A stretch of 64,000 nt of DNA from Tolypothrix sp. PCC 7910 (GTDB taxonomy: Bacteria; Cyanobacteriota; Cyanobacteriia; Cyanobacteriales; Nostocaceae). The translations under genes were made by a program, and so were the position numbers. Of the stretch, positions 6,367-52,741 are shown one piece after another. A model generated the notes under the pieces. That model had not been told where the DNA came from and did not search any database. It saw only the letters and a program-made list of their open reading frames with translations. Where the stretch lies: assembly GCF_011769525.1 (NCBI RefSeq), contig NZ_CP050440.1, positions 6,759,501 through 6,823,500 of the forward strand. The letters are read 5' to 3'. Every line of letters starts with the position of its first letter. The first letter of the stretch is position 1.

Positions 6367-9300
6367 ATGAATTATATAAATGTTTTTACGGTAATACCTG
6401 CTTATAATGCAGTGACAACTATAGCCGAAACACTAAAATCGCTGCAGTCACAAACTTATACAAATTGGGAAGCAATAGTAGTTAATGATGGCTCTACCGA
6501 CGAAACAGAAGCGATCGCACTCCAATTTGCCAGCGAAGATAGCCGTATTCGTGTAATCAGCCAGCCAAATCAAGGAGTATGCGCTGCCCGAAATACAGGC
6601 ATTGGTTTAGCTAATTGCGACTGGCTGCTATTTCTGGATGCAGATGATTGGTTAGCACCACAATATATGGAAAAGATGACAAATGCGATCGCGGCTGATT
6701 CTACTCTCGATGTAGTTCACTGCGGATGGAGTCGTGTTGCGCCTAATGGTACTCTAGTAGCCGATAAATTTGGGTCTGACTCAACAGATTTGTTTCCGAT
6801 TCTGTCACAGCAGTGTCCTTTCGCTGTCCATGCCTGCATTGTTCGCAAACAACTTGTAGATGCAGTTGGTGGATTCGATACTTCCCTCATCACCTGTGAA
6901 GAATGGGATTTGTGGCAACGAATCGCCCGCACTGGCGCACGTTTCGGTGCAGTTAAAGAGGTAATGGCTTTTTATCGTATGCGCCCAGGTTCTCTTTCAA
7001 GAGATGGAAATCAATTCTTTGCTGACGCTATGCGGGTACTCACCCAAGGGTACTATCCTGACCCACGAGTACCAAAACCCTTGCCCCAGTATGCACAAGG
7101 TCAGCCACAAGAAACTCTTCCCAGAGCCAGGCTACATTTGTCAAGTTGGCTGGCGGGACTGTTCCTGGGTCAAGGTGAAGATGCTAGACATTTACTCAAG
7201 TTGTTAGGGGATGACTGCGACCCAGGACTTAACCCCTATTGGGTTGCAGACAATATTTTTGAGTCGGCTTTACTGCTTAACTGCCAATTACCAAGTGCTT
7301 GGATCGCAATCTGGCCTGGTATTGCAGAAACTATCAAAAACTTCTTACTGGCACTAGAGGAGCGATCGCAAGCAGCCGGATTAGCTCGTCGTACAAGTAA
7401 TATTTTAGAACGGATGGTGTTGCAACACGCCCAGATAACTGAGCCAATAACTATAGGTATAACTCATGCAGTTAACTTAGAGTTAACTGAGCTGATTGAA
7501 AATATATCTCTGCCTGAATCCGTTGAGCGTCTTTACTGCGTCGTACAGATGGCAGGATGCGAACTAGGTAGATTGGAATTACCTGTGTGTGATGGGTTAG
7601 TAACTAGTTGGGTAATTAAGGATGCGATCGCATCTCAATTTGCTTGGTCAATCCTTGGCCGATTTTTTCAGCAGACAATATATTCTCCAAGTGAGCAAAA
7701 TTCTCATGACCAAATTGGCTGGACTACATTTTTACAGCAGCTTTGGGGACTACCCGATTGGACAGGCGATCGCTTTTATGATGCAGATTTCGCTGCTGTT
7801 GCTGCTGCTAGAACACAAGCCAAATCCGGCTCCTTGGTTGTAGAAATTAGTGAAGAACTAACTGATATAGAAGTGACACTTCCAGAGTTGGAAGTGATAT
7901 TTACAGTTGGTGGTGTAGCGTTGGGAGTGATAACTATTCCAGTTAAAAACAATTTAGTTACAGCCCAAACCTTAAGAGTTGCACTGACTACATTTGGTGG
8001 ATTTGAACTATGCTGTGCTTGTGTGCGGGAAGGATTGATAGGTCAGTCGTTAAACAACCCAACACCATTACGTTGTCGTTTGGCAGAGGCAGCCAGGAGC
8101 AAATCTCAATTACCACAATGGTTTGCTGCCCCTGGTTTTGGTGCATTGATTGAAAATCAGTTGGTATCTGACAAAACATTAGTCCTCAGTTGCCGTCAAG
8201 ATTTTCATGGAAGCCCCCAAAGACGCGCGATAATGCCGAAAGCAAATGCGCTGGAGTTATTGCAAATGGCTCAGGTTACTGGAGAGGGTGTAATACAAAT
8301 GCCTATTTCTGGACAAATACCAGAGCGAATTATATATGCACCAGAAGCGCTGAGCTTTTCGTCTGGGCATCCGATTATCTCCACAATAGTACCAACCACA
8401 GATATTCAGACAAACTATCAATATGGTCGCGAGCATTTTGAAACTCTGTTTTCTAAGCAACCTGATCCTTGGAAATACACCAGTCCTTACGAACAGACTA
8501 AATATGAACAAACTCTGTCTTTATTGCCTTCTAAACGAATTAGTAGAGCCTTAGAACTTGCCTGCGCCGAAGGACATTTTACTGTGCAATTGGCACCTTG
8601 TGTTGATAGTTTAATTGCTGCTGATATATCTCAAATTGCAATTGAGCGAACTGCACAACGATGTAGCCACCTAAAAAATATCAGTTACCAACAATTAGAT
8701 TTGACTAAAGATGTACTACCACAAAACTTAGAACTAATTGTTTGTAGCGAGGTTCTGTATTATATCGGTGGTTTGGAGCAACTGAAAGCAGTTGCTGACA
8801 AATTTGTTGATGCTTTACAGCCAGGAGGTTATTTGCTCATGGCTCATGCCCATCAAATTATTGATGAACCAGATAAACCTGGCTTTGATTGGGGCTTAAG
8901 CTTTGGCGCAAAAGCCATCAGTGACACTTTTAATAGCATTGCTTCATTACGCTTGGTGAAGGAAATTCGCACACCCTTTTACCGTGTACAATTATTCCAA
9001 CGTCAACCACGCTTCAATTTTCTCTGGTATCGCCAAAATCCAAAAATAGTTACACTAACTCAGCAGCCTACAGCTTTACCCACAGAGGTAGAATCTTCTG
9101 CCCGGTGGAATGGTGTTAAAGCTTCAGAAAATATCGAAGTGCGCTCTGTTACTACCAAAAGATTACCAATTCTTATGTATCACCGGATCGCACCAACAGG
9201 TAGCAAGAAAATGGAGGGTTACAGAGTCACGCCAGAAGCTTTTGAGCAACAATTACGATATCTGCGAGATGCTGGTTTTTATAGTGTGGCATGGGAACAA

Positions 9301-9852
9301 TGGCATTGGGCAATGGCAACAAGACAACCACTGCCAGGCCAAGCGATCGCTATTACTTTTGATGATGGCTATTTAGATTTTTACGAATATGCTTGGCCTT
9401 TACTAAAAAAATATGGTTTCACTGCAACTGTATTTTTAGTTGCAGAATATGTAGGAAATTATAATATTTGGGACAAAGCTTACGAGGAGGAACTACCTCT
9501 TTTAGGCTGGCGCGAAATTCGCCAACTACAAGATGAAGGCGTTGTGTTCGGTTCTCATTCTGCAACCCACAAACCCCTCACATCATTATCTCCTACAGAG
9601 ATTGTTGACGAAGCAGCGCGATCGCGTATTTTACTAACGCGAGGTTTAAGAATGCCAGTTAATCTCTTCGCCTACCCTTACGGCGATAGTGACCCTGTGG
9701 TCGAGCATTTAATTGGCGCTTGTGGTTATAAATTTGGTCTATCTTGTCGTTCAGGATTAAGTCAGTTAATAGATAAGCCGCTTGCCTTACCCCGCATTGA
9801 GGTGATGGGTTCAGATAGTTTACAGGAATTTGTAGCTAAACTCAGTGCATGA
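6367..9852 (+). CDS. GT2 glycosyltransferase / NodS-like methyltransferase / NodB-like deacetylase fusion
   Basis: The product is one polypeptide of 1161 residues. Residues 1 to about 230 are a GT-A family 2 glycosyltransferase: VIPAYNA near the start, NDGSTDE at 40-46, the metal/nucleotide DAD at 91-93 and EEWDLW at 178-183. A poorly recognised linker of about 450 residues follows. Residues about 690-870 are a SAM methyltransferase resembling NodS (DPWKYTSPYE, then motif I LELACAEGHF near 730). Residues about 930-1160 are a polysaccharide deacetylase (NodB fold) with TFDDG near 997, the zinc motif SHSATH near 1061 and FAYPYGD. The combination fits building and N-modifying an amino-sugar glycan. 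It appears monocistronic; the substrate is not determined. The start is an ATG with no clear SD. Confidence 0.9.
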   Translation: MNYINVFTVIPAYNAVTTIAETLKSLQSQTYTNWEAIVVNDGSTDETEAIALQFASEDSRIRVISQPNQGVCAARNTGIGLANCDWLLFLDADDWLAPQYMEKMTNAIAADSTLDVVHCGWSRVAPNGTLVADKFGSDSTDLFPILSQQCPFAVHACIVRKQLVDAVGGFDTSLITCEEWDLWQRIARTGARFGAVKEVMAFYRMRPGSLSRDGNQFFADAMRVLTQGYYPDPRVPKPLPQYAQGQPQETLPRARLHLSSWLAGLFLGQGEDARHLLKLLGDDCDPGLNPYWVADNIFESALLLNCQLPSAWIAIWPGIAETIKNFLLALEERSQAAGLARRTSNILERMVLQHAQITEPITIGITHAVNLELTELIENISLPESVERLYCVVQMAGCELGRLELPVCDGLVTSWVIKDAIASQFAWSILGRFFQQTIYSPSEQNSHDQIGWTTFLQQLWGLPDWTGDRFYDADFAAVAAARTQAKSGSLVVEISEELTDIEVTLPELEVIFTVGGVALGVITIPVKNNLVTAQTLRVALTTFGGFELCCACVREGLIGQSLNNPTPLRCRLAEAARSKSQLPQWFAAPGFGALIENQLVSDKTLVLSCRQDFHGSPQRRAIMPKANALELLQMAQVTGEGVIQMPISGQIPERIIYAPEALSFSSGHPIISTIVPTTDIQTNYQYGREHFETLFSKQPDPWKYTSPYEQTKYEQTLSLLPSKRISRALELACAEGHFTVQLAPCVDSLIAADISQIAIERTAQRCSHLKNISYQQLDLTKDVLPQNLELIVCSEVLYYIGGLEQLKAVADKFVDALQPGGYLLMAHAHQIIDEPDKPGFDWGLSFGAKAISDTFNSIASLRLVKEIRTPFYRVQLFQRQPRFNFLWYRQNPKIVTLTQQPTALPTEVESSARWNGVKASENIEVRSVTTKRLPILMYHRIAPTGSKKMEGYRVTPEAFEQQLRYLRDAGFYSVAWEQWHWAMATRQPLPGQAIAITFDDGYLDFYEYAWPLLKKYGFTATVFLVAEYVGNYNIWDKAYEEELPLLGWREIRQLQDEGVVFGSHSATHKPLTSLSPTEIVDEAARSRILLTRGLRMPVNLFAYPYGDSDPVVEHLIGACGYKFGLSCRSGLSQLIDKPLALPRIEVMGSDSLQEFVAKLSA

Positions 9853-10160
9853 GAGCCCTCCGGAACCTTGCAAATGCAACCATAAGCGCGATGCCTGACG
9901 ACAAGCCACTGCGTGTCTACGCTTGACTAAATTTCCTCATCCTTTGATATCCAACTTTAGGTGGAGATAGTTTGATTGATGCTTATCTTTTGGCAATCCG
10001 AACTTTCTGCCGATAGCTTTCCCTGGGTGAATTTCCTACTATAAACACATGAAGTGAAACGAAAAGCGCAGCGGAAATAACCAAGATAAAACAAATTATA
10101 TCCTGGTTAAAACCATCTGCTAAATCCTCAATAATTACACAATTCACAAGGAATAAAATT
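9853..10160. other. Gene-free leader of the CTB-type peptide gene
   Basis: This 308-bp gap holds no ORF with a ribosome site. It ends in AAGGAATAAAATT directly before the ATG at 10161, a good Shine-Dalgarno for the peptide gene. The promoter presumably lies here. Confidence 0.5.
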
Positions 10161-10418
10161 ATGTCTAACGAAATTAAGAATATTGCGGCTATTGAACTTT
10201 CTGAAGATGAATTAGATAACGTTGCTGGTGGTTTTGGTGATATCGTTCTTGGTGGCGGTCAAAATCTCGGTTTATTTACCAACAGCACCTTTGAGCAAAA
10301 AAATCTAGCAGTAGGTCAACAAACAATCGCAGGCCCTGGTGGTGCTGGTACTACCACCTTGGTTAATGCTCAAGATATCTTCAGCAGTGCAGGACAAGGA
10401 CTATTTGCTGGTAACTAG
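10161..10418 (+). CDS. CTB-type double-glycine peptide (putative bacteriocin precursor)
   Basis: The product is an 85-residue precursor. The first 24 residues form a leader ending ELSEDELDNVAGG, the pattern used by double-glycine leader peptidases (C39-type ABC transporters) and of the cyanobacterial 'CTB' bacteriocin-like family. Cleavage after Gly24 would release a 61-residue core rich in Gly, Ala, Thr and Asn, without Cys or Trp. AAGGA lies eight bases before the ATG. A Rho-independent terminator follows at 10541. No peptidase-transporter, maturase or second peptide lies next to it, so export would need a transporter encoded elsewhere. Bacteriocin activity is an inference from the family name; signalling or adhesion roles are equally open. 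Confidence 0.8.
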   Translation: MSNEIKNIAAIELSEDELDNVAGGFGDIVLGGGQNLGLFTNSTFEQKNLAVGQQTIAGPGGAGTTTLVNAQDIFSSAGQGLFAGN

Positions 10419-10540
10419 AAATATAGCAGGATGAATTATATCAATTTTGATTATTTTTCTAATTCATCCCTAACAAAAATCAAATTTAAAATCACATATA
10501 ACTTGATTAACGATAATGTGATTTTGAGAAAGTTCTGACT

Positions 10541-10575
10541 AACCCTTCTTATAAATTAAGAAGGGTTTTAATATT
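10541..10575 (+). terminator. Rho-independent terminator of the CTB-type peptide gene
   Basis: Perfect 10-bp stem AACCCTTCTT/AAGAAGGGTT around a 7-base loop, followed by a T-rich run. It lies 122 bp after the stop codon. A weaker hairpin (AAATCACAT/ATGTGATTT, 10488-10524) precedes it. Confidence 0.85.
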
Positions 10576-10587
10576 TTTAATCACCTG

Positions 10588-10682
10588 ATACCAATTTGAA
10601 AAAAGAATGCGACAGATATACAGAGCAAAAGCCCTGTCATGTCTAGATTCTTAATTTTGAATTTTGAATTTTGAATTGGTAT
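10588..10682. repeat. ATACCAATT-bounded repeat, copy 1
   Basis: A 95-bp element with ends ATACCAATTTGAAAA and TTTTGAATTGGTAT, plus an inner AAGAATGCGACAGAT motif. Copies with the same ends lie at 14862-14964 and 25155-25333. It includes a short TTTTGAATTTTGAATT tandem. It is non-coding and MITE-like. Confidence 0.7.
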
Positions 10683-10828
10683 GAGTTGGGCAAAAATTAG
10701 TGTTTTTAGCGTCGTTTCTTAAGCTCCCACTTTTTATATTCCTAACTCACCCTGATTTTGTATTTTCCTCTGCTTCAAGTGACAAATCAGGGTTAAGCGT
10801 CTTTATCCTTCAATTCAAAGTTGACATA

Positions 10829-10890
10829 GTAAGTAAGTCGGTGGGAAAAAACAAAACTAAGTTAAGAAAAGTAAACAAAGCTATAACCCT
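10829..10890. repeat. MITE-like element, family 1, left half
   Basis: It begins AGTAAGTAAGTCGGTGGGAAA and continues with AACTAAGTTAAGAAA, matching the left half of the elements at 4150 and 62337. The right inverted repeat is absent; the text switches to a different GC-rich repeat (about 10895-11010), so this copy is truncated. Confidence 0.65.
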
Positions 10891-11121
10891 CTTCCCTCCT
10901 GCCTAGCCTGCGGCAACGCTTACGCGAACTGCCACCTGCCCTTCGGGTTCGCCACTTGCTTTATGCCGGGGAACCCGTCCACTGCAGTGGCTCACCTCCT
11001 GCCTTGTCATAGCAATAATTTTTAACACTGAGCTACTTAGTAGCGGCAGAAACCAATTTTAATTTGATTTGGGAATTGATAATTGAGAATTACCAGAATT
11101 TTATCAGTGCTGGTTTTGGTG

Positions 11122-11421
11122 CTATGCCACCAAATAATAACGACGAATATCTGGTGGTGCAGCCACCAAACTTTGCAGTTTTGCTGCTGCTGCTTGCAAA
11201 TGGGTTGAATTTAAATGAGTATCCAAAGCATCGTTAGAAGCCCATTCCTCTACAAAAGTAAAATCTGTAGGATCGTTCTGGTTTTGCAAAAGTTCATACT
11301 TGATAGCACCTGCTTCTTGTCGGGTTGGTTCAATTAATTCCAACAGAACTGCTTTAATTTCTTCTATTTTGTCAGGTAAAGCAGTTATATGGGCAACAAC
11401 GCGAATAGTTTGGGTAGTCAT
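11122..11421 (-). CDS. Antibiotic biosynthesis monooxygenase (ABM) domain protein
   Basis: The product has 99 residues, a full-length single ferredoxin-like alpha+beta domain of the ABM/quinol-monooxygenase class (YgiN type). The pattern RVVAHITALPDK at the start, E-x-G-A-I-K-Y-E-L in the middle and FVEEWAS is characteristic. Such proteins are cytoplasmic dimers that oxidise quinol-like compounds or degrade haem, often with unknown substrates. It lies 60 bp downstream of mtnB on the same strand and may be transcribed with the methionine salvage genes, though a functional link is not evident. Confidence 0.85.
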   Translation of the reverse strand: MTTQTIRVVAHITALPDKIEEIKAVLLELIEPTRQEAGAIKYELLQNQNDPTDFTFVEEWASNDALDTHLNSTHLQAAAAKLQSLVAAPPDIRRYYLVA

Positions 11422-11481
11422 TTGGTTTTTGGTGTTGGGTATTGGGTGTTTGCGGTTTGAGGTTTGAGGTTTGAGATTTTT

Positions 11482-12126
11482 TTATTTGTTCCCTTTTCCT
11501 CCGCTATTTATCATACGATCGGTAACTATGTAGCGAAAGATGTATTCTAATATCTCAATATAATTACGGCCTGCCGTGGGAGAAGATGCCCAAGTTGTGA
11601 CACCATGATCTCGAATCAGGAGGGCTGGTATTTGCACAAAATTAGCTGTGAAGCGCTGTTCAATTTCTGAAGCAATGCGTGTAACTTGTAAATGATTGGC
11701 AAATATGGGTAAGAAACAACAGGGGTTTTCTTGGTAAACTCCTAAACCTTTAAGCATTTCTAATGGCGGTAAGGGGAGATTATCTTCTAAGACAAAGCGA
11801 GAAACTAAATTAGACTCAACAGAATGGACGTGATAACAGGCTTGTGCTTCTGGGAAGAGGGTATAGATTATTTGGTGAATAGCAGTTTCCGCTGAAGGCT
11901 GTAAATCTGTTGAGGCTTTTTCTAAGCTACCATCTGGATAAACACGAACAAAATCGCTGGCTAATAATTCTCCTTTAGACTTACCGCTAGCTGTAATCCA
12001 GAAGCTACCATCAGGGAGGCGAATCGAAAGATTACCCGCCGTGCCCACCATCCAACCTTGTTGGTAAAAGCTGCGGGCAGTATCGATGAGTTGAATACGG
12101 GCATCGTCTATGATTTGACTAGTCAT
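11482..12126 (-). CDS. mtnB: Methylthioribulose-1-phosphate dehydratase
   Basis: The product has 214 residues, of the class II aldolase/adducin fold. It removes water from 5-methylthioribulose 1-phosphate in the methionine salvage pathway. The zinc site is visible as the His pair in YHVHS (99 and 101) plus a C-terminal His in RDHGVTTWA; Glu80 precedes them in the usual place. The phosphate-binding GTAGNLS lies at 28-34. It is the last of three salvage genes in order mtnD, mtnX, mtnB on the minus strand, nine bases after mtnX, so the genes are probably co-transcribed. Confidence 0.93.
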   Translation of the reverse strand: MTSQIIDDARIQLIDTARSFYQQGWMVGTAGNLSIRLPDGSFWITASGKSKGELLASDFVRVYPDGSLEKASTDLQPSAETAIHQIIYTLFPEAQACYHVHSVESNLVSRFVLEDNLPLPPLEMLKGLGVYQENPCCFLPIFANHLQVTRIASEIEQRFTANFVQIPALLIRDHGVTTWASSPTAGRNYIEILEYIFRYIVTDRMINSGGKGNK

Positions 12127-47686: not shown

Positions 47687-47762
47687 TATCAATTCCTTTA
47701 AGCAAAATTGCTGACTAAATATTTGAGAACGCAGACAATACCAAATAAGCTCAGAGACATTG

Positions 47763-49517
47763 ATGAACTTAAAATTGGCAACAGAAAATATAATTGGCAT
47801 GAGAAATTATGCGATCGCAAAAAATATTCTATTTGCCTTCTGGCTGTTAATGTCACCCGCGATCGCTCAAACCTCTCCCATCCCTACACAAACCAAACCA
47901 AACCCCAATATTGAAAGGTTTCCCCAACCTTTACCAATACCGCAACCGCTTCCACCCAGCCAAGAACAACCAACTATTCCAGTACCAGCGCCTACACCAA
48001 CACCAGAACAGCCAAATATTCCTATACCCGTCAGTAAAATTGAAGTTGTCGGTAGTACCATTCTTCGGGATCAGGAAATTACCTCCATTACCAAACCTTT
48101 AGAAGGACGTTCAATAACTCTCAAAGACATCCAAAGTATTGCAGACAGTATCACTCAGCTTTACTTAAATCGAGGTTATTTAACATCTAGAGCAATTGTT
48201 GCTGAACAAACAATTACTGACGGTGTAGTAAAAATTCAAGTTATCGAAGGTTCTCTGGAAAAAATAGAAATCAAAGGAACTCGTAGCCTGAATCCTGGGT
48301 ATGTGCGTAGTCGTGTGAACTTAGCAGTCGGAAAACCCCTCAGAGTCAATAAAATCGAGGAGCAACTACAACTACTCAAACAAGATCCTTTATTTACTAG
48401 TGTAGAAGCTATTCTTACACCAGGAACTAATGTAGGGCAAAGTATCTTGACAGTCCGAGTTCAAGAAGCCAATACCATTAGTGGGAATATCGGAGTAGAT
48501 AACTACTCATCTGCGGCTGTAGGTTCCCCACGTTTTGGAGGTGCAATTAGCGATCGCAACGTTAGCGGTTTAGGTGATGAATTCAGCGCTTCCTATTATC
48601 GTTCAATCACTGGCGGTTCCAATTCCTTGGACTTCAGCTATCGATTACCAGCCAATGCCATGAATGGCGCAGTGCAACTACGCTATTCTCTCAGCGATAG
48701 TAAAATTACTCAAGCTCCATTTTCCGAGTTAAATATTACAGGCGATAACCAGTTGTATGAAATCAGCTATCGTCAACCGTTGGTGAGAACACCGCGTGAG
48801 GAATTTGCTTTATCTTTAGGATTTGCATTGCAGAATGGGCGCAATACCTATATCTTTAACGGCATCCGGATGCCTATAGGTACGGGTTCTGATAGCGAAG
48901 GTAAGACTAGAACCAGGGTGCTGAAGTTCGGGCAAGATTATATTAAACGCGATGTAGAAGGTGCGTGGGCATTGCGATCGCAATTTAGTTTTGGCTTAGA
49001 TCTATTCGATGCCACTATTAACTCTGATTCTATACCCGATGGTAGTTTCTTTAGCTGGTTAGGACAAATTCAGCGAGTCCAACGCTTAGGGAGAGACAAC
49101 TTACTCATTGCCCAAGCTGATATTCAACTTACACCAGACAGCTTGCTATCTGCACAACAATTTTCCCTTGGTGGCGGACAATCTCTGCGTGGTTATCGCC
49201 AAAACGCCCGTACAGGAGACAATGGTTTTCGCATATCCCTAGAAGACAGGATAGCAATTTTACGCGATCACGCCGGATTACCAAACCTGCAACTAGCACC
49301 CTTTATCGATATGGGCGCTGTGTGGAACGCCGCCAACAATCCCAATCAGCTACCAAATCAAACCTTTTTAGCATCTGCAGGCTTAGGGTTACTGTGGGAA
49401 CCAATACCCCGCCTACTCATGCGCTGTGATTATGCATTTCCCTTCATAGATTTAAGCGATCGTACTCAGGATATGCAAGACCAAGGTTTTAGCTTTAGTG
49501 TCAACTACAGTTTTTAA
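47763..49517 (+). CDS. Two-partner secretion outer-membrane transporter (TpsB, ShlB/FhaC type)
   Basis: The product has 584 residues from ATG 47763; an alternative ATG at 47799 gives a more classical signal peptide ending MSPAIAQT. After a Pro-rich linker (about 45-85, many PQPLP/PTP units) come POTRA domains (SKIEVVGSTILRDQEI and LEKIEIKGTRSLNPGYV) and a C-terminal beta-barrel of about 340 residues. The barrel carries LGGGQSLRGYRQN, the conserved loop motif of this family, and ends FSFSVNYSF with the terminal Phe expected for outer-membrane insertion. It should export the TpsA protein encoded 146 bp downstream. Confidence 0.93.
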   Translation: MNLKLATENIIGMRNYAIAKNILFAFWLLMSPAIAQTSPIPTQTKPNPNIERFPQPLPIPQPLPPSQEQPTIPVPAPTPTPEQPNIPIPVSKIEVVGSTILRDQEITSITKPLEGRSITLKDIQSIADSITQLYLNRGYLTSRAIVAEQTITDGVVKIQVIEGSLEKIEIKGTRSLNPGYVRSRVNLAVGKPLRVNKIEEQLQLLKQDPLFTSVEAILTPGTNVGQSILTVRVQEANTISGNIGVDNYSSAAVGSPRFGGAISDRNVSGLGDEFSASYYRSITGGSNSLDFSYRLPANAMNGAVQLRYSLSDSKITQAPFSELNITGDNQLYEISYRQPLVRTPREEFALSLGFALQNGRNTYIFNGIRMPIGTGSDSEGKTRTRVLKFGQDYIKRDVEGAWALRSQFSFGLDLFDATINSDSIPDGSFFSWLGQIQRVQRLGRDNLLIAQADIQLTPDSLLSAQQFSLGGGQSLRGYRQNARTGDNGFRISLEDRIAILRDHAGLPNLQLAPFIDMGAVWNAANNPNQLPNQTFLASAGLGLLWEPIPRLLMRCDYAFPFIDLSDRTQDMQDQGFSFSVNYSF

Positions 49518-49663
49518 CCTCACTTTTCTGAAATTACTGGAGTCAGTAAATAACAGCTAAATCAACGCCATTCTCTCTACAAAACGCTGATGTGTTGGTT
49601 TAGCCTCTCCTCGACAACCATATATTTACCTAACTTCGCCACAATCAAAGTAGGAGTCCTAAA

Positions 49664-52600
49664 ATGTCACAAATTATCTTGGGAAAATCAACTAACAAAC
49701 AATATCAATTTATCCAAATAACAACTCTATGGGCTGTGAAAAATTACAAATCTTATCTATTCCTCTATATCCTCTGCGCCCTCTGTGGTTCGTTTTTTGT
49801 AGATGGAATCATCAATCAAGCTATAGGCGAAATCACACCAAATTCTGGCGATACCAATACAGTAATTAATCAAACGGATAACACTATTAATATTGAAGGT
49901 GGCACTAAAACAGGTTCAAATCTCTTCCACAGCTTTGATAAATTTGGACTCAATAAAGGTCAAATCGCTAACTTTACTTCCGACTCTTCTATTCAAAATA
50001 TTTTCGGTCGAGTGACTAGTGGTGAAGCTTCAATAATTAACGGCTTAATTCAAGTTACAGGTGGCAAATCCAACCTATTTTTAATGAATCCTGCTGGTAT
50101 TATTTTTGGTTCGAGTGCTAGCTTGAATGTTCCCGCAGCATTTACAGCTACTACAGCTAATGGTATTAGGTTAAATAATCAATGGTTGAATGCAGTTGGT
50201 ACAAATAATTATAGTAATTTCACAGGCAATCCTGATGCTTTTGCTTTCACACAATCAGGAGGAGGAATTATTAACAATAGTAATTTAATTGTTGCTTCCG
50301 GGCAAAACTTAACCTTATTAGGCGGCACAGTAATTAGTACAGGAAGAATAGAAGCAGCAGGAGGTCTAGTCAATATTTCTGCTGTACAAGGAGAAAAATT
50401 AGTTCAAATTTCTCAAGAAGGAAATTTGTTAAGTTTGGGTTTACCTGTAGATACAAAATCAGCAATTAATCCTTTGCCTTTTACGCCATTGTCATTACCT
50501 GCTTTACTTACTGGTGGAGGCTTAAAGTTAGCGGCTACTGTCGCTGTCGATCCAAGTGGAAATGTGAAGCTCAAGGATTCTGAATCTATACAAGTAGGAG
50601 AAACAAGAATAAATCCTAGTGATTTGAAAGTAGATGCTAATGGTATTTTAAGATATGTAGATTCTGATGCGCCTGTAGGTAATGGCAATATTGCAATCGA
50701 GCCTCTCGGAATTAATGTCAATAATGGTGAAGTAAAAGCCTTTAACTCTAATACGCAAATCCAAAATGGAGATGTATTAGTAACTTCTTTATATGGAAAA
50801 AATGCCACTTTAGCAGCAGACAATAACTTTATTTTTGAACCTGGTCTATTTTTTAACGAATTAACCACATCTAGCGATTTAAATATAATCGCTCAAAATA
50901 GAGTCAAAATTAGCGATGCTATTGACGATCCACAAAACACTATTAAACGAGTTGTGCAGGTAGGAGGCAATTTAAAAATCCAAGGTAATCAAGCAATTGA
51001 TATAGAATTTAGTAGCAAACCAGACTCGATTCTACAAACTGGTAGAGATTTAAGTTTAATTAGTGATGGCAAGATTATTGGTAATGCTCGTTTTGCTACC
51101 GGGGGAGATTTCTCTATTCTTAACCTATCTGGTGGTACAGGAAATTTAACCTTTGGAACGTCAAACGGCACACCTTCATATCCAATAATTAGTTCAAATG
51201 GTGATGTTAATCTTGGCAATTATACAGGCCCTTCCCTAAAGGTAGAAGCTAGAGGCAGTATCTTTGCTGAGAACATCACAATTAACGATAAAAATAGTTC
51301 TTTACAGGGGACAGATCCAGATATTTCGGTTTTAGCTAGCAGCCCATCATTAATATTACGCGCTGGCTTGCATCAATTGCGTAATAGCCCCAATGATTCA
51401 TCAGAAACACCAGCCACATCGCCAGGAAGCATTACTGTGAATGGTGATATTAACATGAAATTACCAGATGAGCAAAATCGCAACTTTGGCCCTGTGATTC
51501 TGTCTGCAAAAGGCGACATCAATGTCAAAGGAAATATTGCCGATCAAAACTTATCTTCTGGTGATAGAGGTAGCCCAGTTATATTAAATTCATCACAGGG
51601 TAACATCACAGTTGGAGATATTAAAGCTGGAAATCCTATGTTGGTGAGTGAGGGGAATATTACCGCCAAGAATATTCTGGGTGGAGCTATACTTAGTCAA
51701 ACATTTGAGCAAAACTCAAATATAGGATTTTTATTTTCTAGAACAGGCAATATTGTCTTAGATACCATCTTCATTAGGTCAGGAAGTATCGATATTAGTG
51801 CTGGTGGTATTTTTCAAGCTAAAGAAGCGATCGCTACTGATTCCCAATTTAGTGGCCCTAGTAATGTTCCAGTTAGCGTTTTAGCAGCACGTCACATCAA
51901 TATTCAGCACGGGAATAACAATTTTGAGCAAGGGATTGGTGTGGAAAGAGATCAGTCAGGAAATCCAATTTACAGACTTGTCGAAAAGGATCAGTCAGGA
52001 AATCCAATTTACAAACCGGGTGGTAGACAAGTTTTCTTCCGAGGTTATTCCTTCTCCTCAGACCCAGATGTATTATTCAGAGATAAAAATGGCAATTTAG
52101 TAGTTGTTCCAAAACCTGATGGTCAAAGTGATAGTACAGTTTTTGGCAGTAATCAGGCTGTTTTTGTTGATGAAAATGAACAGTTTGTCTCATATAGACC
52201 TATAACTGTTAACACTGTGGAATTTAATCCTTCTACAAATGCTAGCTATACTCGCGGATTAATTATTCTTCAACAAGGACAGAACGCACAACTTACTGGT
52301 GTCTATCAAGATACACGACTTGGGTCTAGCAACGGTATTAGTGTAGTTACTGCACCTCCTGTTGTGACTAATCCTGTTGTGACTAATCCTGTTGTGACTA
52401 ATCCTGTTGTGACTAATCCAAATAGTGGTACTAACTCTCCTAGCAGTAATAATAACGGCGTAGCTGGCTCTGTTGACACACAAAGCCAGTTGATTAATCA
52501 AAATTCCCCAAATGGGCCTTGTCAAGCTATAAATCAAAGCCTGAATTTAGGTCAAAAGCTAAAACAACCACGCGGAATATCTAGAGATATTCCGGATTTA

Positions 52601-52741
52601 GGTACTGCAAATACTTGTGAAGGCTCAACTGAAGGTAATATTCTGCGGATTATTCCAGATAATCGAATCCAACCTATGCCGATTAATTTAAATCCTGTAT
52701 CTCAATTAGAAATTAATCGTAGCCAGAAAATAGATTTCTAG
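49664..52741 (+). CDS. Two-partner secretion exoprotein (TpsA, filamentous haemagglutinin type)
   Basis: The product has 1025 residues. A long extended signal segment (about 25-50) is followed by the TPS domain (about 55-190) with NLFHSFDKFGLNKG, SGEASIINGLIQV and NPAGIIFGSSA, which is recognised by the TpsB POTRA domains. The rest is a beta-helix-like repeat-poor region ending in a Cys-containing tail. Two internal repeats occur: DQSGNPIY twice (about 763-785) and four copies of VVTNP (about 903-922). AGGAG lies nine bases before the ATG. It is probably a surface adhesin or secreted filament; its partner is the preceding gene. Confidence 0.92.
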   Translation: MSQIILGKSTNKQYQFIQITTLWAVKNYKSYLFLYILCALCGSFFVDGIINQAIGEITPNSGDTNTVINQTDNTINIEGGTKTGSNLFHSFDKFGLNKGQIANFTSDSSIQNIFGRVTSGEASIINGLIQVTGGKSNLFLMNPAGIIFGSSASLNVPAAFTATTANGIRLNNQWLNAVGTNNYSNFTGNPDAFAFTQSGGGIINNSNLIVASGQNLTLLGGTVISTGRIEAAGGLVNISAVQGEKLVQISQEGNLLSLGLPVDTKSAINPLPFTPLSLPALLTGGGLKLAATVAVDPSGNVKLKDSESIQVGETRINPSDLKVDANGILRYVDSDAPVGNGNIAIEPLGINVNNGEVKAFNSNTQIQNGDVLVTSLYGKNATLAADNNFIFEPGLFFNELTTSSDLNIIAQNRVKISDAIDDPQNTIKRVVQVGGNLKIQGNQAIDIEFSSKPDSILQTGRDLSLISDGKIIGNARFATGGDFSILNLSGGTGNLTFGTSNGTPSYPIISSNGDVNLGNYTGPSLKVEARGSIFAENITINDKNSSLQGTDPDISVLASSPSLILRAGLHQLRNSPNDSSETPATSPGSITVNGDINMKLPDEQNRNFGPVILSAKGDINVKGNIADQNLSSGDRGSPVILNSSQGNITVGDIKAGNPMLVSEGNITAKNILGGAILSQTFEQNSNIGFLFSRTGNIVLDTIFIRSGSIDISAGGIFQAKEAIATDSQFSGPSNVPVSVLAARHINIQHGNNNFEQGIGVERDQSGNPIYRLVEKDQSGNPIYKPGGRQVFFRGYSFSSDPDVLFRDKNGNLVVVPKPDGQSDSTVFGSNQAVFVDENEQFVSYRPITVNTVEFNPSTNASYTRGLIILQQGQNAQLTGVYQDTRLGSSNGISVVTAPPVVTNPVVTNPVVTNPVVTNPNSGTNSPSSNNNGVAGSVDTQSQLINQNSPNGPCQAINQSLNLGQKLKQPRGISRDIPDLGTANTCEGSTEGNILRIIPDNRIQPMPINLNPVSQLEINRSQKIDF
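52365..52420 (+). repeat. 15-bp coding tandem repeat (VVTNP)
   Basis: GTTGTGACTAATCCT is repeated four times in the TpsA gene (the last unit ends in CCA), giving a Val-Val-Thr-Asn-Pro linker. Identical codons in all units make slippage likely. Confidence 0.9.

Follow-up and report, generated by a model that had tools for sequence, protein, structure and literature searches.

In the genome of the cyanobacterium Tolypothrix sp. PCC 7910 (assembly GCF_011769525.1), we analysed a stretch of 64,000 nt (contig NZ_CP050440.1, positions 6,759,501 to 6,823,500 of the forward strand; hereafter the window) and, within it, one large gene whose product joins a glycosyltransferase, a methyltransferase and a deacetylase. 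The gene is a single uninterrupted frame from ATG to stop encoding 1161 amino acids (aa), and the longest open reading frame (ORF) on the opposite strand over the same interval has 84 aa. Pfam recognised a family 2 glycosyltransferase (GT2; PF00535, 122 bits, aa 9–118) and a polysaccharide deacetylase of carbohydrate esterase family 4 (CE4; Polysacc_deac_1, PF01522, 90 bits, aa 988–1123), both far over their cut-offs, as well as a NodS-type methyltransferase (MT; PF05401, aa 699–863), which passed its gathering cut-off of 24 with 82.6 bits. Together with the uninterrupted frame, these matches confirm the fusion of three enzymes in one chain that the original prediction, made from the sequence alone, had described. 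A DXD-type motif is the hallmark of GT2 enzymes, and Asp-Asp and HxxxH are the metal-site motifs of CE4 enzymes. The protein carries DGSTD, FLDADDW and CEEWDLW in the GT2 domain, DPWKY, LELACAEG and SEVLYY in the MT domain, and TFDDG, HSATH and YPYGD in the CE4 domain; apart from DPWKY, we take these to be the expected motifs of each enzyme. Class assignment was based on the Pfam score together with TFDDG and HSATH for CE4, and together with FLDADDW, found in all 14 proteins of this plan (see below), for GT2. The full-length AlphaFold2 model (mean predicted local distance difference test score (pLDDT) 66, predicted template modelling score (pTM) 0.45) was too weak to define the domain arrangement and was not used.

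Table 1. Layout of the fusion gene in the window (aa, residues of the 1161-aa product; SAM, S-adenosylmethionine)
Feature	Positions	Strand	Evidence
Whole gene, 1161 aa: GT2, helical domain, module A, module B, third segment, MT, CE4	6367..9852	+	Frame, Pfam, 13 same-plan proteins
GT2 glycosyltransferase domain, aa 1-235; DGSTD, FLDADDW, CEEWDLW	6367..7071	+	Pfam, solved-structure matches, motifs
Predicted helical domain of the linker, aa ~240-354	7084..7428	+	Linker-only AlphaFold2 model
Module A, aa 366-438, strands then helices; homologous to the N-terminus of exporter-cluster glycosyltransferases	7462..7680	+	Profiles, model
Module B, aa 487-562, second copy of module A	7825..8052	+	Profiles, model
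Third conserved linker segment, aa ~600-660; family pattern RRA.(L/M)P + YAPE	8164..8346	+	12-homologue alignment
NodS-like class I SAM methyltransferase (MT) domain, aa ~691-895	8437..9051	+	Pfam, solved structures, motifs, NCBIfam
CE4 polysaccharide deacetylase domain, aa 928-1161, with stop codon; PgaB/IcaB-like	9148..9852	+	Pfam, solved structures, NCBIfam
CE4 motif TFDDG, aa 997-1001, intact	9355..9369	+	Alignment
CE4 motif HSATH (HxxxH), aa 1064-1068, intact	9556..9570	+	Alignment

Comparison with named families placed the three enzymes at different distances from the rhizobial proteins NodS, NodB and NodC, to which they had originally been likened. The MT domain matched NodS (NCBIfam NF041650) best among the models listed, with 93.7 bits against a cut-off of 300, and NodS was also its closest solved structure, followed by phosphoethanolamine N-methyltransferases; by these measures it is NodS-like, yet not NodS by the NCBI cut-off. 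The CE4 domain scored 97 bits with PgaB (cut-off 322) and 54 bits with IcaB (cut-off 248), missing both cut-offs, and 16 bits (E 0.0066) with NodB (TIGR04243), far from the cut-off of 240. Its closest solved structures were 6dq3, 4wcj and 3vus. For the GT2 domain, PRK10073 gave 105 bits and NodC (TIGR04242) 28.8 bits (cut-off 550, missed), and the best solved matches were chondroitin synthase (2z87), GalT1 (5hea) and PglI (9jma). Judged by these scores, the CE4 domain is nearer to the poly-N-acetylglucosamine N-deacetylases PgaB and IcaB than to NodB, and the GT2 domain is not NodC-like. Unlike in PgaB and IcaB, which act outside the cytoplasm, the CE4 domain is fused here to a glycosyltransferase and a methyltransferase.

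Processive chitin-oligomer synthases of the NodC type have a QxxRW motif and membrane helices. No QxxRW motif is present in the 1161-aa protein. The highest 19-residue hydropathy, 2.05 at aa 508–526, exceeds the customary membrane-helix threshold of 1.6; since this sole hydrophobic peak coincides with two beta strands predicted in module B, neither the hydropathy scan nor the linker model made evident a membrane helix in the window protein. The proposed polymerisation of a sugar chain thus found no support. A condensed Nod-factor pathway, in which one polypeptide would polymerise, deacetylate and N-methylate a chitin-like oligosaccharide signal, shares all three reaction types with NodS, NodB and NodC, and an MT best matched by NodS. 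Nod-factor production by Nostoc has also been speculated upon in print, from separate NodB and NodC homologues (PMC6963936), in a main text with 0 occurrences of NodS, fusion and trifunctional; that speculation is not supported for the window protein by the comparisons made here. Given the low NodB and NodC scores, the missing QxxRW motif and the exporter and glycosyltransferase genes that adjoin its relatives (see below), we rejected a Nod-factor synthase and regard this pathway as extremely unlikely. Of the Nod analogy, the reaction types and the NodS-like MT held up, and the kinship to NodB and NodC did not.

A search for the same domain order, which the original prediction had suggested, yielded 13 further full-length proteins with the plan GT2-linker-MT-CE4, 50–67% identical to the window protein. 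With the window, the 14 full-plan proteins come from 106C, T09, G091, G556, G619, G653, G537, G534, G538, G533, G532, G613 and G625 (L050 and L052 both represent T09, which enters the counts a single time; the 583-ORF counts below are the exception). Because full-length proteins of 13 other genomes keep the domain order, the fusion is not an assembly accident; it is real and belongs to a small cyanobacterial family. In the open-access literature (PMC) we found no described protein of this plan, nothing on a NodS structure, and, for sulfotransferases in connection with exopolysaccharides or Wzt, only papers whose listings concern other subjects. Among 39 genomes including its own, two other genomes of the genus encode the full protein (67–68% identity), Nostoc sp. 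106C and T09 have it according to a scan of named genomes, and within the genus it occurs in three of eight genomes, again counting its own. Searches with the linker matched 9 of 386 genomes in a phylum sample, 13/217 genomes of the window's family, 30/61 of family f2 and 2/42 of family f28. From family f2, proteins of 26 of the 30 matching genomes were analysed (left out were G458, G462, G476 and G475 (contig end), and further copies in G464 and G474). Relatives with other plans were found as well. In 25 of them a sulfotransferase stands in place of the GT2 domain and no MT is present (by BLAST in all 25, and as Sulfotransfer_3 by Pfam in 5/5 scanned); with a headless fragment of 412 aa (L171), the sulfotransferase type comprises 26 proteins. 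G091 encodes a second copy, a 981-aa GT2-linker-CE4 paralogue, and this was the one row without NodS in a 15-row alignment (A2) in which Pfam found GT2 and CE4 in 15/15 rows and NodS in 14.

The alignment revealed that the state of the CE4 metal site follows the presence of the MT. Both Asp-Asp and HxxxH are intact in 14/14 proteins with an MT and in 0/27 CE4-bearing proteins without one (25 sulfotransferase-headed, one GT2-headed and one fragment), a link that rests on about two events, not 41 cases, as two changes are needed on the CE4 tree of 41 rows. The 26 proteins of family f2 have TFDGG in place of TFDDG, with M or L replacing the first His of HxxxH, and the G091 paralogue has R at this His with TFDD kept. 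Loss of catalytic residues in homologues, which the original prediction had named as evidence against itself, was thus found for CE4 in all 27 relatives without an MT and in none of the 14 full-plan proteins. These 14 also keep the MT motifs DPWKY, LELACAEG and SEVLYY, with conservative changes in some, and C-E-(D/E)-W-D in the GT2 domain; in the latter, G091 and G556 differ in their DGS loop. For Nod factors, PMC5080398 describes N-methylation, in one Rhizobium, only on chains deacetylated first. By analogy with NodB and NodS, the link is most simply read as the deacetylase serving mainly to supply the MT with its amine. The co-occurrence therefore supports an order in which deacetylation first frees the amine and the MT then methylates it, in keeping with the activities first proposed for an amino sugar, and the joint loss of the MT and the metal site would predict a specific product, an N-methylated amino sugar.

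The linker of about 450 residues, for which no role had been assigned, turned out not to be featureless. Modelled on its own with AlphaFold2 (30-row alignment; mean pLDDT 80, pTM 0.76), as the original prediction had advised, it is predicted to form a helical domain followed by two similar units, A and B, each of strands and then helices. With this model, Foldseek returned no significant structural match, and VIA-align gave middling rows only, mostly over the helical part; the absence of a match to a predicted structure is no proof of a new fold. At the sequence level, the linker found nothing in Pfam at E ≤ 10, and likewise nothing among PDB sequences. We then ran profiles built exclusively from linker proteins (unit A from 10 rows, omitting two large-insert rows of 12; unit B from 12 rows) on 322 ORFs from loci of this family, with sequence E-values up to 1. 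The unit A profile matched 13 linker proteins, 25 glycosyltransferases and one other protein (E 0.48), and the unit B profile 13 linker proteins and 20 glycosyltransferases. Within the glycosyltransferases, the module nearly always occupies the first ~75 residues. Profile-profile comparison with 23 N-terminal or internal glycosyltransferase units gave a probability of 97.6 (E 2.7e-12) for unit A and 96.6 (E 6.1e-10) for unit B, and A against B gave 79 (E 1.6e-5), compared with maxima of 0.9, 3.4 and 5.1 in shuffled controls (40 per comparison, 120 in total). These profile matches indicate that the linker comprises, besides its helical domain, two copies of a module of ~70 residues common to glycosyltransferases of ABC (ATP-binding cassette)-exporter clusters.

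A combined profile (A3) matched 83 of 583 ORFs at E ≤ 0.01, namely 43 linker proteins and 40 GT2 proteins, and another 36 GT2-like proteins lacked the module; since the ORFs were drawn from loci selected for this family, such numbers should not be read as genome-wide rates. Run across the whole 8.8-Mb genome of the window, the module profile gave four matches at E ≤ 0.001. Two are in the window protein, and the other two are in glycosyltransferases encoded in a Wzm/Wzt cluster (C1:6361156 and C1:6364719); all four units are members of the profile, and the informative part is the absence of any further match in the genome. No Pfam model is listed for the module, which could serve as a handle for finding partner enzymes. 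In G439 we also observed an 852-aa protein (L151:8291-10849, + strand) in which a GT2 domain stands between two module pairs, with neither MT nor CE4. That the protein is chiefly a scaffold, important for its modules and in the course of losing its catalytic domains, would fit the relatives with a broken metal site, whose CE4 domains are still 51–59% identical to that of the window protein. We consider this very unlikely for the full-plan proteins, given their conserved catalytic motifs.

The genomic associations of the protein point to polysaccharide export. The cluster in the window's genome (C1:6355768-6367996) encodes a Wzm-like permease, a Wzt-like ATPase with a Wzt_C domain and the two module-bearing glycosyltransferases. 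In Nostoc sp. 106C and in G091 the fusion gene directly follows the exporter ATPase gene, starting 240–280 bases and about 420 bases downstream, respectively, and in T09 it lies ~3.2 kb after it, with two ORFs between. Wzt_C was present in 14/14 exporter ATPases scanned (5 + 9). In the phylum sample (orthologue threshold E ≤ 1e-120, best four candidates per genome scored), the Wzt-type ATPase was found in 14 of the 386 genomes, which include all nine with a linker protein; as seven of these nine belong to one family, the association is partly clade history. Likewise, the eight genomes with the ATPase among the 39 mentioned above all fall within the ten that have the module. At nine of the ten further full-plan loci, an ABC transporter similar to HepA, the heterocyst formation ABC transporter, and at least one module-bearing glycosyltransferase are near the gene, and no Wzt was found in the stretch read at any of the ten. 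Unlike HepA itself, the transporter of L144 (583 bits) falls below the HepA cut-off of 725; the other eight were identified by BLAST to it (64–99% identity), and these transporters are probably HepA paralogues. In most of these loci, a second glycosyltransferase did not reach the module-profile threshold (E 0.01).

Taken together, these data suggest that the window protein is most likely, with a probability of roughly 0.6, a multi-domain enzyme that acts in the cytoplasm to tailor a cyanobacterial surface polysaccharide of the ABC-exported kind; its location, amino-sugar substrate and linkage we infer. It would most likely add an N-methylated amino sugar to such a glycan, rather than make a plant-signalling Nod factor. 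In this scheme, the GT2 domain would attach a single sugar (probably an N-acetylamino sugar) to a lipid-linked glycan, the CE4 domain would strip the N-acetyl group from the added sugar and the NodS-like domain would methylate the freed amine. The two linker modules may bring the enzyme to glycosyltransferases with the same module, a putative docking role. What appeared as a Nod-like fusion curiosity could thereby become a testable case of surface-glycan assembly and marking in cyanobacteria, for which a 2015 review speaks, in the passages concerned, of few experimental studies of polysaccharide biosynthesis and export (PMC4390846).

Several observations weigh against this assignment. The gene stands alone in the window, ~398 kb from its presumed cluster. 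In the same genus, G003 and G004 have the Wzm/Wzt cluster and lack the enzyme, which is therefore dispensable there. G011 and G013 each have one weak module match and no ATPase at the threshold used, and in G625 the stretch read contained neither exporter type nor a module-bearing glycosyltransferase. Solved CE4 relatives are mostly active outside the cytoplasm. On the CE4 tree, the second of the two changes is the G091 paralogue, a long-branch row of unsure placement, and the well-supported branches force only one. Finally, the MT also matches O-methyltransferases, though more weakly (e.g. BioC, 29 bits). Both the CE4 and the MT superfamilies include O-acting members. The CE4 domain might thus remove O-acetyl or other acyl groups and the MT methylate a hydroxyl, chemistry for which methylation and acetylation of cyanobacterial polysaccharides, reported in general terms in parts of PMC4390846, offer a precedent. 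The best-scoring named families are, however, N-deacetylases and an N-methyltransferase, and a single shared amine most simply explains why both activities are lost together; we therefore consider such other tailoring chemistry unlikely.

A narrower form of the proposed tailoring role is that of a WbdD-like enzyme that caps and thereby terminates the chain: an added N-methylated terminal sugar would stop polymerisation and be read by Wzt_C, and the sulfotransferase-headed relatives would make a sulfate cap. Like WbdD and other terminators of ABC-exported O-antigens, the fusion is a multi-domain tailoring protein encoded, in some genomes, beside a Wzm/Wzt pair with a carbohydrate-binding domain. 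PMC3482155 and PMC11231755 describe systems in which multi-domain terminators are coupled to such domains, and in which the carbohydrate-binding domain of the ATPase recognises a terminal mark. The chemistry of WbdD differs, being that of a kinase and a methyltransferase (PMC3482155). In the Nostoc and G091 clusters, where the ATPase carries Wzt_C, the product may act as a terminal cap and so license the glycan for export. In family f2, to which the sulfotransferase-headed relatives belong, the exporter ATPase combines Wzt_C with a fused C-terminal sulfotransferase domain in 10/11 scanned by Pfam (e.g. L055:11193-13262, − strand); the exception is the G157 ATPase (L057). However, 11 of the 14 full-plan genes (the ten loci and the window) have no nearby Wzt, which also bears on the export assignment as a whole; nine of these have the HepA-like transporter instead. 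This weakens the cap as a general rule, as does the cluster without the enzyme in same-genus strains, and we regard a cap role as possible, though rather improbable. More speculative is a modular family of cap-writing proteins, in which the shared docking module would recruit interchangeable heads to the ABC-exporter glycan machine: GT2, NodS-like MT and a live deacetylase would write an N-methylamino sugar, or a sulfotransferase on a dead-deacetylase scaffold a sulfate, as the export mark. This idea is doubtful; it draws on the sulfotransferase domain just described, which the exporter ATPase of the sulfate clade itself bears in 10/11 scanned.

In the immediate surroundings of the gene, promoter-like sites upstream were near chance (three found versus 2.1 expected), as were terminator-like sites (one versus 0.5), and Rfam gave no match at E ≤ 0.1 in window positions 9853–11500. 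Just downstream (10161–10418, + strand) lies an ORF for an 85-aa CTB-family bacteriocin precursor (NCBIfam NF038167, 68 bits, cut-off 32). DNA similar to this precursor gene occurs in arrays elsewhere in the genome, one of which (C1:6377832-6379633) is ~10 kb from the exporter cluster. A spacer in the window (10585–11040) has short stretches that recur in all eight genomes of the genus, at many places among the matches listed. Farther away in the window, two adjacent ORFs of 585 and 1025 aa (47760–52741, + strand) resemble a two-partner secretion pair.

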